This document shows, piece after piece, positions 24,917 through 28,935 of a stretch of DNA of 64,000 bases. The DNA is from Bdellovibrio sp. NC01 (GTDB lineage: Bacteria > Bdellovibrionota > Bdellovibrionia > Bdellovibrionales > Bdellovibrionaceae): NCBI RefSeq assembly GCF_006874625.1, contig NZ_CP030034.1, forward strand, positions 2,232,001-2,296,000. Direction: 5' to 3'. The stretch's first letter is position 1, and each line of letters starts with the position of its first letter. The notes beneath the pieces are model-generated. The model did no database searches. It was not told the origin of the DNA and saw only the letters and a program-made list of their open reading frames with translations. Made by a program: the position numbers and the translations under genes.

Positions 24917-25690
24917 CTAGAGACTTTCTTTAAGTTGAATCATAGCCTGCTGATCCGTTTTGATAAGCCCCCGACGAGGCCTATCGATGTCCATGATCAG
25001 GCCAATGACCAAAGAAAATAAAACCGACAAAGCGAAGATATTAAATAACGACTTATTTCCACGCAAACCTTCCAAATACCCGAGAGACCCCACCCCGATC
25101 GCGCCGATCAGATATAACAAAATATAAACCAGTTCTGGAATGCGATGTTCCATCGCGCTGGTGCGTTCACTTTCAGAATCAAAGACCGTGTTCATCGCAT
25201 TCACACTTAACGCCATTATAGGATCGCGGTATTTTTCTGTTAATGGCATCAACGTATTCCAAATATCACTTTGTACCATGCGGGTTTTCATTTTCAGTTC
25301 ATCAATGCTTTTTTGATCAGCTTTAAAATTATTAAACTCAATGCGCAGGTCGACGTACTGTTTAAGCAAGCTTTTAACTTTTTCTTTAGCAGCTTGCGGT
25401 AGAAGATCTGCACGGAGGTAAGCGGTCCCAATGGCGTTCGCTTCTTGTATGACAAGGTTCCTGCGATTTTCATAGTGCGTAACTGACATCGAAAAAGTAA
25501 AACCTAGAACCAAGGCCATAAGACCTAGGATGGTTGTCGGCGCAAAATTTGTGGAGTCTTCATCAGTATCTTTTAGACGACGGTGAAAACGACCGCTGAG
25601 TTTTCCAATATAAGAAGCCGCTGCCAATATCATCAGCATTATAAGAATGACCAGCCACAGATCTAAATTATAGAACACATCAAGCCGCAT
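24917..25690 (-). CDS. DUF4239 (bestrophin-like) membrane protein
   Basis: A 257-residue membrane protein. Hydrophobic segments lie near residues 10-28, 50-68, 185-202 and 215-235. TTILGLMALVLGFTFSMSV and NLVIQEANAIGTAYLRADLL are the diagnostic core of DUF4239, a family annotated as bestrophin-like because of a distant similarity to anion channels. A helical cytosolic or periplasmic stretch of about 110 residues joins the two membrane pairs. Function not proven in any close relative. Gene 84 bases downstream of the J-domain gene on the same strand. Confidence 0.85.
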   Translation of the reverse strand: MRLDVFYNLDLWLVILIMLMILAAASYIGKLSGRFHRRLKDTDEDSTNFAPTTILGLMALVLGFTFSMSVTHYENRRNLVIQEANAIGTAYLRADLLPQAAKEKVKSLLKQYVDLRIEFNNFKADQKSIDELKMKTRMVQSDIWNTLMPLTEKYRDPIMALSVNAMNTVFDSESERTSAMEHRIPELVYILLYLIGAIGVGSLGYLEGLRGNKSLFNIFALSVLFSLVIGLIMDIDRPRRGLIKTDQQAMIQLKESL

Positions 25691-25774: not shown

Positions 25775-26569
25775 TCACAGCATCACGTCGACGAAACGTT
25801 TAAAGAAGCCTTCACCACAACGAGAGGTTTCCTGATAGAACTTCACGGCCTCTTTCGCTTTGGCGCTAATGCCGTCGGCGCTGAAGACGGTTTTTTCTGT
25901 GTAGGTTGCCGTTTTTTCTGCGGTCGATGCGGCACTGCTTGCGGGCGGCGTCTTTGGTTTTTCGTAAACCGGTTTTGCTTCTGCTGCTTTTGCGGCTTCT
26001 GCATTAGCCTTTGCAACTCGCGCGGCTTCCTCCGCACGAGCTTGTGCCGCTTTTGCTTCATGCGCGGCTTTTTCGGCCTGATCTTTTGCGGCGGCTTCCG
26101 CTCGGGCCTTCGCTGCGGCGGCGGCCTTTTCTTTTGCAGCTTGCTCGGCCTTTTCAGCCGCCTCTTTTGCCTGCTTTGCACTGAAGTCTTCCGGCGTCCA
26201 TTTTTTCGGTCCTTCACTTGCCGCTGACTTAGCACTTGTCGCGGTCGTCGTTGCAGTTGTTGCTTTGATCTTTACATCGTATTGTCGACGCGCCATTGGA
26301 TCAGCCAACGTATCGCGTGCGATATTTACTTTCTTTAAGACTTCCGTGGCCGCTTTGCTTTTCACAGGGTCCTGTTGATAGCGGTCAGGATGATAAACTT
26401 TCAAAAGCTTTCGATAAGCCGTTTTGATTTCATCATCCGTCGCGTTCTTGCTAACCCCTAGAATGTCGTAAAAAGAACTATTCGGATTCATGATACGACG
26501 AACTTCATCCGCGGTTTGCGCGAAACCGACAGAAGCAAATAGTAATGAGAAAACTATCAGCCACTTCAT
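25775..26569 (-). CDS. Secreted J-domain protein with Ala-rich coiled coil
   Basis: A 264-residue protein that starts with a signal peptide (KWLIVFSLLFASVGFA). Residues 33-90 form a complete J domain (YDILGVSKNATDDEIKTAYR with HPD at 60-62). A long Ala/Glu/Lys-rich helix or coiled coil (about 125-205) follows, then a short C-terminal domain with one Cys. J domains stimulate DnaK-type ATPases, which live in the cytoplasm, so an exported J protein is unusual. ATG 26569 overlaps the upstream stop as ATGA and has AGGAG before it, so translation is coupled to the gene at 26566. Confidence 0.85.
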   Translation of the reverse strand: MKWLIVFSLLFASVGFAQTADEVRRIMNPNSSFYDILGVSKNATDDEIKTAYRKLLKVYHPDRYQQDPVKSKAATEVLKKVNIARDTLADPMARRQYDVKIKATTATTTATSAKSAASEGPKKWTPEDFSAKQAKEAAEKAEQAAKEKAAAAAKARAEAAAKDQAEKAAHEAKAAQARAEEAARVAKANAEAAKAAEAKPVYEKPKTPPASSAASTAEKTATYTEKTVFSADGISAKAKEAVKFYQETSRCGEGFFKRFVDVML

Positions 26570-28110
26570 TTGCAAACTCCTGCTGTCGACGATTCACGAA
26601 TTGCTTGTGATACTTTTTCCGGTTTTTGTTTGATCATCGTCAACACTTGCTGGCGTTCGTTGGCAGGAAGATCAGACAAATACCCTAAGAACATACCCAT
26701 CTCATCCGAGCTGACTTCTTTTTGGCTTTTCTCTAGCGCTTTTAAGACTTCTTTATCCGCAGAAACCTCTTTCAGTGAAACTGCAAGTGACTTGACACTT
26801 GCAGCTTCCACTTTCGCGCCTTCTGTTGCCACTTTTGAAAGCGAACCTAAGCGCGACGCTTGTGCCGCTTCCTTCATAACTTTCATACCTGTGCCAAACG
26901 GAATAATCGAAACCGCAGAAAAGCCAGCTTCAGCAAGTTCGGAATAAGCTTGTTTTTTTGCTTGATCGGCTTTTGTGAAAGCATCGCCTGAAAGACCTTC
27001 TGCATATGCTGAAGATCTAAGATTGCTTGCATCGACAAAAGAACTATAAGCTTTTGAAGATGCATAAACTGTCTCACCACCACCAACAACAGTTCCGGCA
27101 ATAGCGACACCCGTTGCCACAGTTGTCAGCGTTGTCGCAGCCGCAGTGCCAGACAAGACGACGGCACCCACACCTGCACCAATCCCGGTCACAAGTAAAA
27201 CGCCCCCAACAACCAATCCACCCCAGAAGACGGCTTTATCGATTGTTTCTTGTCGTCCCACTTTGCTGTCGTAACCTTGCAGAATTTTACAAATCAAATC
27301 GGCCGAACCTGGATTTTTTAATAGGTACTCTGCTGTCGCAGCGGGATTAGAGATCACCAAGTTCTGCAGCGACTCTTCAGAAGATTTTCTAGAAAGATCC
27401 GTAAGATAGTCTTCGTGCTTCTTAAGTTCGCCTTGTACTTCTTTAAATGCGTTTTTGACATCGACTTGGGAAATCGCTGATTTAAACTTTCGGTCTTTAA
27501 TTGCATTTGTATAAAACAACAACTCCAGGCCCTGCTGTGCCGGACGAGCTTTTAAATCGCGTTCACGATCCATCAGCTCGACAGCCACATCAAGAGTGTC
27601 CTGACTTGCAGCTTGTTGCCAATATTTCTGCGTATTTTTTAACTGCTGCGAAGCGATTCCTAAAATCTTTTCTTTGGCATCGTCTTGCATACTTTGTTGC
27701 AAGTCCTTACCAAACAGTTGCAGCTTCTTTTCTTGCGCCACAGGCTCGAAACAATCAGCGGGACTTAAGGCTTTGATGTTCAAAGCCTTTGCCAACGCCT
27801 CCGCCACACCTTTCGCGGCGGCCGTTGAAACCACGCACTTATCAAGGCGCGCTTTTAGATCGGTGGCTGTTAAAAGGTTCTGACCTTGTTGCAAAATGAT
27901 TTTGCCTTCAGGTGTTTGCAGTTGGGAGACTTTACTTTTATCGGCCACCAATTTTTGAAATGACGTTTTGAATGACGCTACAACTTTAGGATCATCCATA
28001 TTGGCAGCAGCCCACGCGATCTGCTTTGAATATAACAATTCCAAATCGGAAGCGGCATTTGCCACCGAGTAAGAGAATATTAAAATGATCAGGACGATCC
28101 AGCGCTGCAT
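26566..28110 (-). CDS. Secreted protein with Gly-rich hydrophobic hairpin, unknown
   Basis: A 514-residue protein with signal peptide QRWIVLIILIFSYSVANA. The mature part is mainly helical. Residues about 293-350 form a long Gly/Ala/Val-rich hydrophobic stretch (GGLVVGGVLLVTGIGAGVGA, then a second run) like a membrane-inserting hairpin or glycine zipper. Three Cys lie at KCVVS, ADCFE and near the C-terminus (GVCK). The arrangement recalls pore-forming or polymorphic-toxin leader regions, but I recognise no family. It lies between a regulator (six bases upstream) and the secreted J-domain gene (ATGA overlap). Probable role: an exported effector or envelope protein. Confidence 0.7.
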   Translation of the reverse strand: MQRWIVLIILIFSYSVANAASDLELLYSKQIAWAAANMDDPKVVASFKTSFQKLVADKSKVSQLQTPEGKIILQQGQNLLTATDLKARLDKCVVSTAAAKGVAEALAKALNIKALSPADCFEPVAQEKKLQLFGKDLQQSMQDDAKEKILGIASQQLKNTQKYWQQAASQDTLDVAVELMDRERDLKARPAQQGLELLFYTNAIKDRKFKSAISQVDVKNAFKEVQGELKKHEDYLTDLSRKSSEESLQNLVISNPAATAEYLLKNPGSADLICKILQGYDSKVGRQETIDKAVFWGGLVVGGVLLVTGIGAGVGAVVLSGTAAATTLTTVATGVAIAGTVVGGGETVYASSKAYSSFVDASNLRSSAYAEGLSGDAFTKADQAKKQAYSELAEAGFSAVSIIPFGTGMKVMKEAAQASRLGSLSKVATEGAKVEAASVKSLAVSLKEVSADKEVLKALEKSQKEVSSDEMGMFLGYLSDLPANERQQVLTMIKQKPEKVSQAIRESSTAGVCK

Positions 28111-28116
28111 GTTCTC

Positions 28117-28935
28117 TTATCCCTTTATTGGTCCACGATGAAGACTGACGTTAAATGAAATTGCTTCCGTATTATAGCTGACATCGGTTTCATCTGCGGC
28201 ACGAATCGTTTGAAACAACAGTTCCAAATGGCCTAGGATGATATCCACTTGTCGTGGCGAAACGCGCTTAAAGAACGACGCAAGTTTCGCTTTTTTCATT
28301 GCGAAGAACTGATGACGAACTTGATCAAAACTATCGAGAGCGCCATACAGTTTTTTTAACGACTCCGAATCCGCTTTAGGAAAAACATACTCTGGGAATG
28401 AAGCAAAGGCCTGGCCTTTTTCTTCAAAGGCGACCTTTACGGCTTTGAGATCTTTTAATGCCTCTTCAAGATTTACAAATGAATATGTCGCCATATCTTC
28501 ATGTGACAATCCCTCTCGCGCCAAGGTTAATAGCAAGAACAAGAAATAATGGCCTTCCGATTTTGCGATTACCGCCACCTGACGTTCAGTCAGTTCTTGT
28601 TGAAAACTTTTAAGGTCCGCTTTTTTGACTGCAGTTTTCGAGATTTTGCTGGTTGCCTCTTTAGATTGACTTAAAATACGCGACATCTGTTTTGGAAAAA
28701 GACTCTGACAATAAATTGCGACCAAGCTGTCACCGTCCACTTGAGGCAGAAGGTTTGCCAACTGGTTGATAACCTTTTCAGAAGGTGCCGTCTGATCGGC
28801 TTCGATTTTCATGTAATAGGAATAATTGAAAACCAGATCAGCCCTGGCTTCTAACGCCATATAAAAGGAGCGCGCACTGGTAAAACCCATCTTTGTACGG
28901 ATCCCTTTAAGTGCACTGCCCATCGATTCAGCCAT
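28117..28935 (-). CDS. HTH-type regulator, TIGR02147-like
   Basis: A 272-residue helical protein. Residues 5-60 (SALKGIRTKMGFTSARSFYM ... KIEADQTAPSEKVINQLANL) look like an XRE-type HTH. The remainder, ending AISFNVSLHRGP, resembles the C-terminus of TIGR02147 proteins, although the match is weaker than for the gene at 20792. I chose ATG 28935 (AAGAGAC upstream) because a start at 29049 would extend into the divergent gene. It heads the operon with the hairpin and J-domain proteins and probably controls it. Confidence 0.66.
   Translation of the reverse strand: MAESMGSALKGIRTKMGFTSARSFYMALEARADLVFNYSYYMKIEADQTAPSEKVINQLANLLPQVDGDSLVAIYCQSLFPKQMSRILSQSKEATSKISKTAVKKADLKSFQQELTERQVAVIAKSEGHYFLFLLLTLAREGLSHEDMATYSFVNLEEALKDLKAVKVAFEEKGQAFASFPEYVFPKADSESLKKLYGALDSFDQVRHQFFAMKKAKLASFFKRVSPRQVDIILGHLELLFQTIRAADETDVSYNTEAISFNVSLHRGPIKG

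Follow-up and report, generated by a model that had tools for sequence, protein, structure and literature searches.

J domains are, to our knowledge, tied to ATP-driven Hsp70s, and we know of none in bacterial periplasms. That a J-domain protein can leave a bacterium and act on the Hsp70 of a host has a precedent in HopI1 of Pseudomonas syringae, which is injected, binds the host Hsp70 and stimulates its ATPase (PMC8150971). Plasmodium and mammalian cells also export J proteins (PMC9867986, PMC6681276). In the literature that we searched, no bacterial secreted J protein with a signal peptide was found. In Bdellovibrio, Lambert et al. (2010) described Bd0677 as a strong dnaJ homologue and treated it as a normal DnaJ; its transcript was down 6-fold only in the shift from attack phase to host-independent (prey-independent) growth (PMC2797640).

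Here we describe a pair of genes, H and J, in Bdellovibrio sp. NC01. Both lie on the minus strand of the window, by which we mean the whole stretch of 64,000 nucleotides that was analysed (Table 1). Like other class C J-domain proteins (PF00226), J has a canonical J domain with the HPD motif and no other DnaJ domains; unlike them, it carries this domain behind a signal peptide and in front of a disordered linker, ends in a conserved tail with a cysteine, and is obligately paired with H. HopI1 is injected into plant cells by type III secretion, whereas J carries a signal peptide of the Sec type and would act on a bacterial DnaK. Neither a type III signal nor homology to type III J effectors beyond the J domain was found, and no part of J other than this domain matches a characterised family. 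The Plasmodium and mammalian J proteins are likewise sent outside the cell but differ from J in their eukaryotic routes and partners.

Table 1. Features of the H and J genes and of the adjoining open reading frame (positions are those of the window)
Feature	Position	Strand	Remark
J, predicted exported J-domain protein, 264 aa	25775..26569	-	HD100 ortholog Bd0677
H, predicted exported helical protein with hydrophobic hairpin, 514 aa	26566..28110	-	HD100 ortholog presumably Bd0676
H/J stop/start overlap, ATGA	26566..26569	-	same site in 11/11 Bdellovibrio genomes, in one as GTGA
Regulator-like ORF	28117..28935	-	six bases (28111-28116) upstream of H here only; outside the conserved unit
J signal peptide, residues 1-18	26516..26569	-	by inspection; 12/12 orthologs
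J domain, residues 33-98	26276..26473	-	Pfam PF00226, 71.6 bits against a cut-off of 27.8, E 5.9e-20
HPD motif, residues 60-62	26384..26392	-	invariant in 12/12 orthologs
J C-terminal tail with the sole cysteine of the mature protein (Cys251, 25817-25819)	25778..25885	-	conserved
H signal peptide, about residues 1-20	28051..28110	-	by inspection; similar N-termini in orthologs
H glycine-rich hydrophobic hairpin, residues 294-345	27076..27231	-	best-conserved part of H, both among 11 orthologs and in the distant family

The initial annotation described a three-gene operon in which a regulator precedes H and J. The gene order, the six-base gap and the ATGA overlap are all present, and the linkage of H to J holds in relatives, but the linkage of the regulator does not. 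We rejected the trio and exclude the regulator from the unit because, in two genomes that keep the pair (G005 and G023), the orthologs of this gene lie about 2.2 Mb away from it, and in the remaining pair-bearing genomes no ortholog was detectable. The label itself is unproven, as the protein matches no helix-turn-helix family. The genes flanking the pair vary between lineages on both sides. The next gene downstream in NC01 (24917-25690, minus strand) encodes a bestrophin-like membrane protein (PF14023, E 1.6e-16), which elsewhere does not adjoin the pair.

H was found in 11 of the 24 Bdellovibrio genomes searched, NC01 included, and J follows it directly, with the same four-base overlap, in every one of them. 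A profile of H run over 369 genomes of the phylum recovered one further full-length relative, in a genome from another family (G063, locus L098); there too the next gene codes for a J protein with a signal peptide, the overlap is of the same kind and the tail (SCSKGFLGTVIDTLI) is shared. Full-length J orthologs are present in exactly the 12 of these 369 genomes that have a full-length H ortholog, and with the full-length J profile the tail region was detected in exactly the same 12. H and J are thus a real pair, strict, conserved and previously unremarked. The pair is missing from 13 of the 24 Bdellovibrio genomes and therefore cannot be a general requirement for predation; it is also absent from G025, which we take to be the epibiotic B. 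exovorus JSS. This means that the pair is an accessory of some predators and not a core part.

The pair can be placed in the model strain through its neighbour in one of these genomes, G005, which is presumably that of B. bacteriovorus HD100. There, H is immediately preceded by the gene for Bd0675, an HD100 protein with a crystal structure (PDB 7OC9; match over all 134 residues, E 1e-87) that has been described as a secreted predatosome protein (PMC8616854). Because the numbering is consecutive after Bd0675, H would be Bd0676 and J Bd0677, which fits the naming of Bd0677 as a dnaJ homologue by Lambert et al. (2010). The Bd0675 gene adjoins the pair in only three of the 11 genomes. Its product is secreted, as J is predicted to be, and has a cysteine two residues from its end, but it is a small beta-roll protein, unrelated in sequence.

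J consists of a signal peptide, a short stretch, the J domain, a low-complexity linker and the conserved tail. The full J domain with an intact HPD, already recognised in the initial annotation, scores well above the Pfam cut-off, and the domain is under strong purifying selection: in three close pairs of orthologs its dN is 0.01-0.02 and its dS 0.6-0.8 (dN/dS about 0.02-0.03). In these pairs the tail has a dN near zero, and the linker evolves faster. With a list of positions that contact DnaK in E. coli DnaJ, we compared the Hsp70-contact positions with the rest of the surface: they are the more conserved both in the H-linked J proteins (p 2.6e-4) and in the other exported J proteins described below (p 2.4e-4), and the cytosolic DnaJ of the same phylum has the same excess. 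The H-linked J proteins deviate at two of these positions, DnaJ N37 being mostly Tyr and F47 mostly Met, and they have an insertion of four to five residues in the loop following the HPD. The basic helix II is kept in all 12 of them and in the other 13 exported J proteins. The mature chain of each of the 12 has exactly one cysteine, near the C-terminus, and H has four at conserved places in its 11 Bdellovibrio orthologs. This odd total invites the hypothesis of a disulphide between H and J or between two J molecules.

The signal peptides of J and H were judged by eye. Read in this way, the N-terminus of J (MKWLIVFSLLFASVGFA-QT, from the ATG at 26569) is a classical signal peptide, and it is kept in the 11 Bdellovibrio orthologs and at L098. 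Its mean identity across orthologs is 45%, against 64% for the J domain, a drift typical of signal peptides. All 12 J proteins have a Lys or Arg at the extreme N-terminus followed by a short hydrophobic core, and 10 of them have a small-residue cleavage site before QT; from this pattern an N-in/C-out orientation is predicted. A start downstream of the signal sequence, which would leave J in the cytoplasm, was considered and rejected as unlikely because the internal Met is not conserved: Met27 is absent at three loci (L026, L027 and L028), and in the L098 protein no Met separates the signal from the J domain. The initial reading of J as a signal-peptide protein is therefore upheld, and export of J is supported by every sequence criterion that we applied. 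As far as prediction goes, J does not share the cytoplasmic location of the J domain in co-chaperones of the DnaJ, CbpA or DjlA type. With its predicted export, Bd0677 should no longer be read as an ordinary DnaJ homologue of the cytoplasm.

J is not the only protein of this kind. At least 13 more proteins of the phylum (at L162, L163, L164, L171, L175, L176, L178, L182, L184, L187, L190, L191 and L192) have an intact J domain that comes straight after a hydrophobic, signal-like segment, a tally that comes from a non-systematic look through J-domain matches in this phylum only. Ten of the 13 were scanned, and all ten were above the Pfam DnaJ cut-off. The HPD is present in 13/13, partly by selection since it was used to cut out the domain, which does not affect the count for the orthologs of J. 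The bodies of these proteins are mostly unrelated and unannotated; ten of the 13 have a cysteine no further than 17 residues from the end, and the loci around the 13 yielded no H homologue. One of them (L162:7302-8615, 437 aa, with one tail cysteine and no hairpin partner) is from G014, a Bdellovibrio genome that does not have the pair. The J domain lies close behind the signal peptide in each of the 25 exported J proteins that were found. With at least 13 further signal-peptide J proteins, export of J domains is, as judged from their N-termini, a recurrent design in the phylum. That a phylum of predators should repeatedly place intact J domains behind signal peptides needs explaining.

H consists of a signal peptide, a helical region, the hairpin (residues 294-345) and a further helical region that ends in GVCK. 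Its description as a secreted, glycine-rich hydrophobic protein agrees with what we found, the signal peptide again being assigned by inspection. H has no significant match in Pfam, NCBIfam, PADLOC or the PDB sequences, and none in plasmids. Two structure models reached a mean pLDDT of 64 and, for the second, built from 33 rows, 69.8; the hairpin is of low confidence in both. In a Foldseek search the H model had no match under 0.001. VIA-align placed ClyA, AhlB and SmhB among the helical matches with Z about 6, which is within background, and the best PDB match of the H profile is the SmhB hairpin (E 0.37). H resembles the alpha-pore-forming toxins (ClyA; the B components SmhB and AhlB) in that it is secreted and helical and has a glycine-rich hydrophobic hairpin, but it is longer, has separate helical regions on either side of the hairpin and has no significant match to them in sequence or fold.

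The central region of H, an NPxA...NP...C motif and then the hairpin, is common to proteins of 490-1644 aa in about 40 other genomes of the phylum, and H belongs to this unnamed family. Besides the relative at L098, about nine members (L103, L104, L105, L115, L119, L123, L128, L134 and L135) directly precede another secreted gene, often with an overlap. About six other kinds of secreted partner are closely coupled to the family. Four of the nine partner genes form one family: these 684-1005 aa secreted proteins, directly downstream of the H-family genes at L123, L128, L134 and L135, are a second recurrent partner. Other members differ in their C-termini, two of which resemble enzymes. One (L107:4547-7990) has a papain-like region with PF03051/PF00112 above cut-off, and the other (L124:5503-10437) a kinase-like region (TIGR03843, E 2e-16) with a HEFQH sequence downstream. 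Such coupling to secreted genes and fusion to enzyme-like domains is as expected of carriers or effectors, and a conserved module with variable C-termini or partners, the hallmark of polymorphic toxins and effector carriers, is found in the H family. From its sequences, the family may be one of carriers or anchors whose cargo varies.

The question is then which Hsp70 an exported J domain could work with. The only true Hsp70 in the NC01 genome is DnaK (636 aa), which lacks a signal peptide, as do all three DnaKs that were checked. An exported Hsp70 was sought in five genomes, which yielded only DnaK and actin-like relatives, and an exported Hsp70 of the predator was rejected on this basis. Since the predator's only Hsp70 is cytoplasmic and the contact surface of J is kept, the simplest reading is a partner outside the predator cytoplasm, which would be the Hsp70 of another cell; prey DnaK had already been suggested as a possible partner in the initial annotation. 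Within a bdelloplast, the other Hsp70 that an exported J would meet is the prey's. We therefore speculate that H and J form a two-protein module that would leave the predator by the Sec pathway and be released into the prey periplasm. There H, all-helical and with a glycine-rich hairpin apparently built for membrane insertion, would enter the prey inner membrane. J, a small co-chaperone with a flexible linker, would probably be tethered by its tail cysteine to H or to a second J, and its J domain may engage the prey DnaK, which would be turned to the predator's use or simply occupied. We regard an exported module that acts on prey DnaK as the best single explanation, although as a whole it is tentative and falls somewhat short of an even chance. 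If it holds, predators would control prey through the prey's own chaperone, and H would be a candidate for the way in which predator proteins get through the prey inner membrane. The model can be tested directly, since HD100 is amenable to genetics and neither gene is large. A broader proposal is that J is the hairpin-coupled subtype of a whole class of J co-chaperones that Bdellovibrionota export through Sec to take over the DnaK of prey or host bacteria, with delivery by a family of exported hairpin carriers, hitherto undescribed, whose cargo is interchangeable; this we find possible but doubtful.

Other explanations place the action of J elsewhere. J may be exported yet act solely in the envelope of the predator itself, where its J domain would have become a docking site for H or another envelope protein and need neither Hsp70 nor ATP. 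J is inseparable from H, the single tail cysteine of the one and the four conserved cysteines of the other suit an oxidising compartment, and the two altered Hsp70-contact positions point the same way. The HPD and the basic helix II, however, are present in 12/12 orthologs and in the 13 other exported J proteins, which speaks against a mere docking domain, as this would not be expected to retain a catalytic motif, and we consider this explanation rather unlikely. It is improbable, in our view, that the J domain acts before export, recruiting the predator's own DnaK in the cytoplasm and keeping H or its own chain unfolded for Sec, so that its presence outside would be incidental. The low-complexity linker that forms the body of J here would need no such help, and most relatives of H are presumably exported although they lack a J partner; the closeness of J domain and signal peptide in all 25 proteins, the very large bodies of some (1416-1697 aa) and the translational coupling of H and J would nevertheless agree with it.

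The signal-like segment could also be an uncleaved anchor, with J facing the predator cytoplasm as an ordinary membrane-bound co-chaperone. DjlA, with a membrane segment at its N-terminus and its J domain in the cytoplasm, is a precedent, but its J domain is C-terminal, unlike that of J, and the N-terminal Lys or Arg (12/12), short core and cleavage site (10/12) predict the opposite orientation, which makes this very improbable. Finally, the patchy distribution of the pair across the genus, the papain-like and kinase-like C-terminal regions of distant H relatives and the secreted genes that closely follow about nine other relatives would suit a contact-dependent or secreted antibacterial weapon, in which H is the carrier and J one cargo that harms competitors and does not serve predation. 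A J domain is not a known toxin, however, PADLOC gave no match, and by eye no immunity-like gene or toxin-delivery domain was recognised beside the pair. We hold a weapon to be about as improbable as an action before export, and retain the module acting on prey DnaK as our preferred reading.

Two further observations concern cysteines. Secreted proteins of the window and of L018-L028, L098-L137 and L162-L177 often have a cysteine in the last eight residues; in the phylum loci the figures are 31% against 8%, and the window alone gives no significant difference. We do not claim a special export tag because the loci were selected for H and because the terminal cysteine of Bd0675 is in an ordinary disulphide. 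Among the exported J proteins are three giants of 1416-1697 aa (L184:2769-7019, L191:1356-5915 and L192:4609-9702) from small genomes (1.4-2.0 Mb) of the same order; no other Pfam domain was found in those at L184 and L192, and all three combine a signal-like segment with a J domain and contain 10-16 cysteines.
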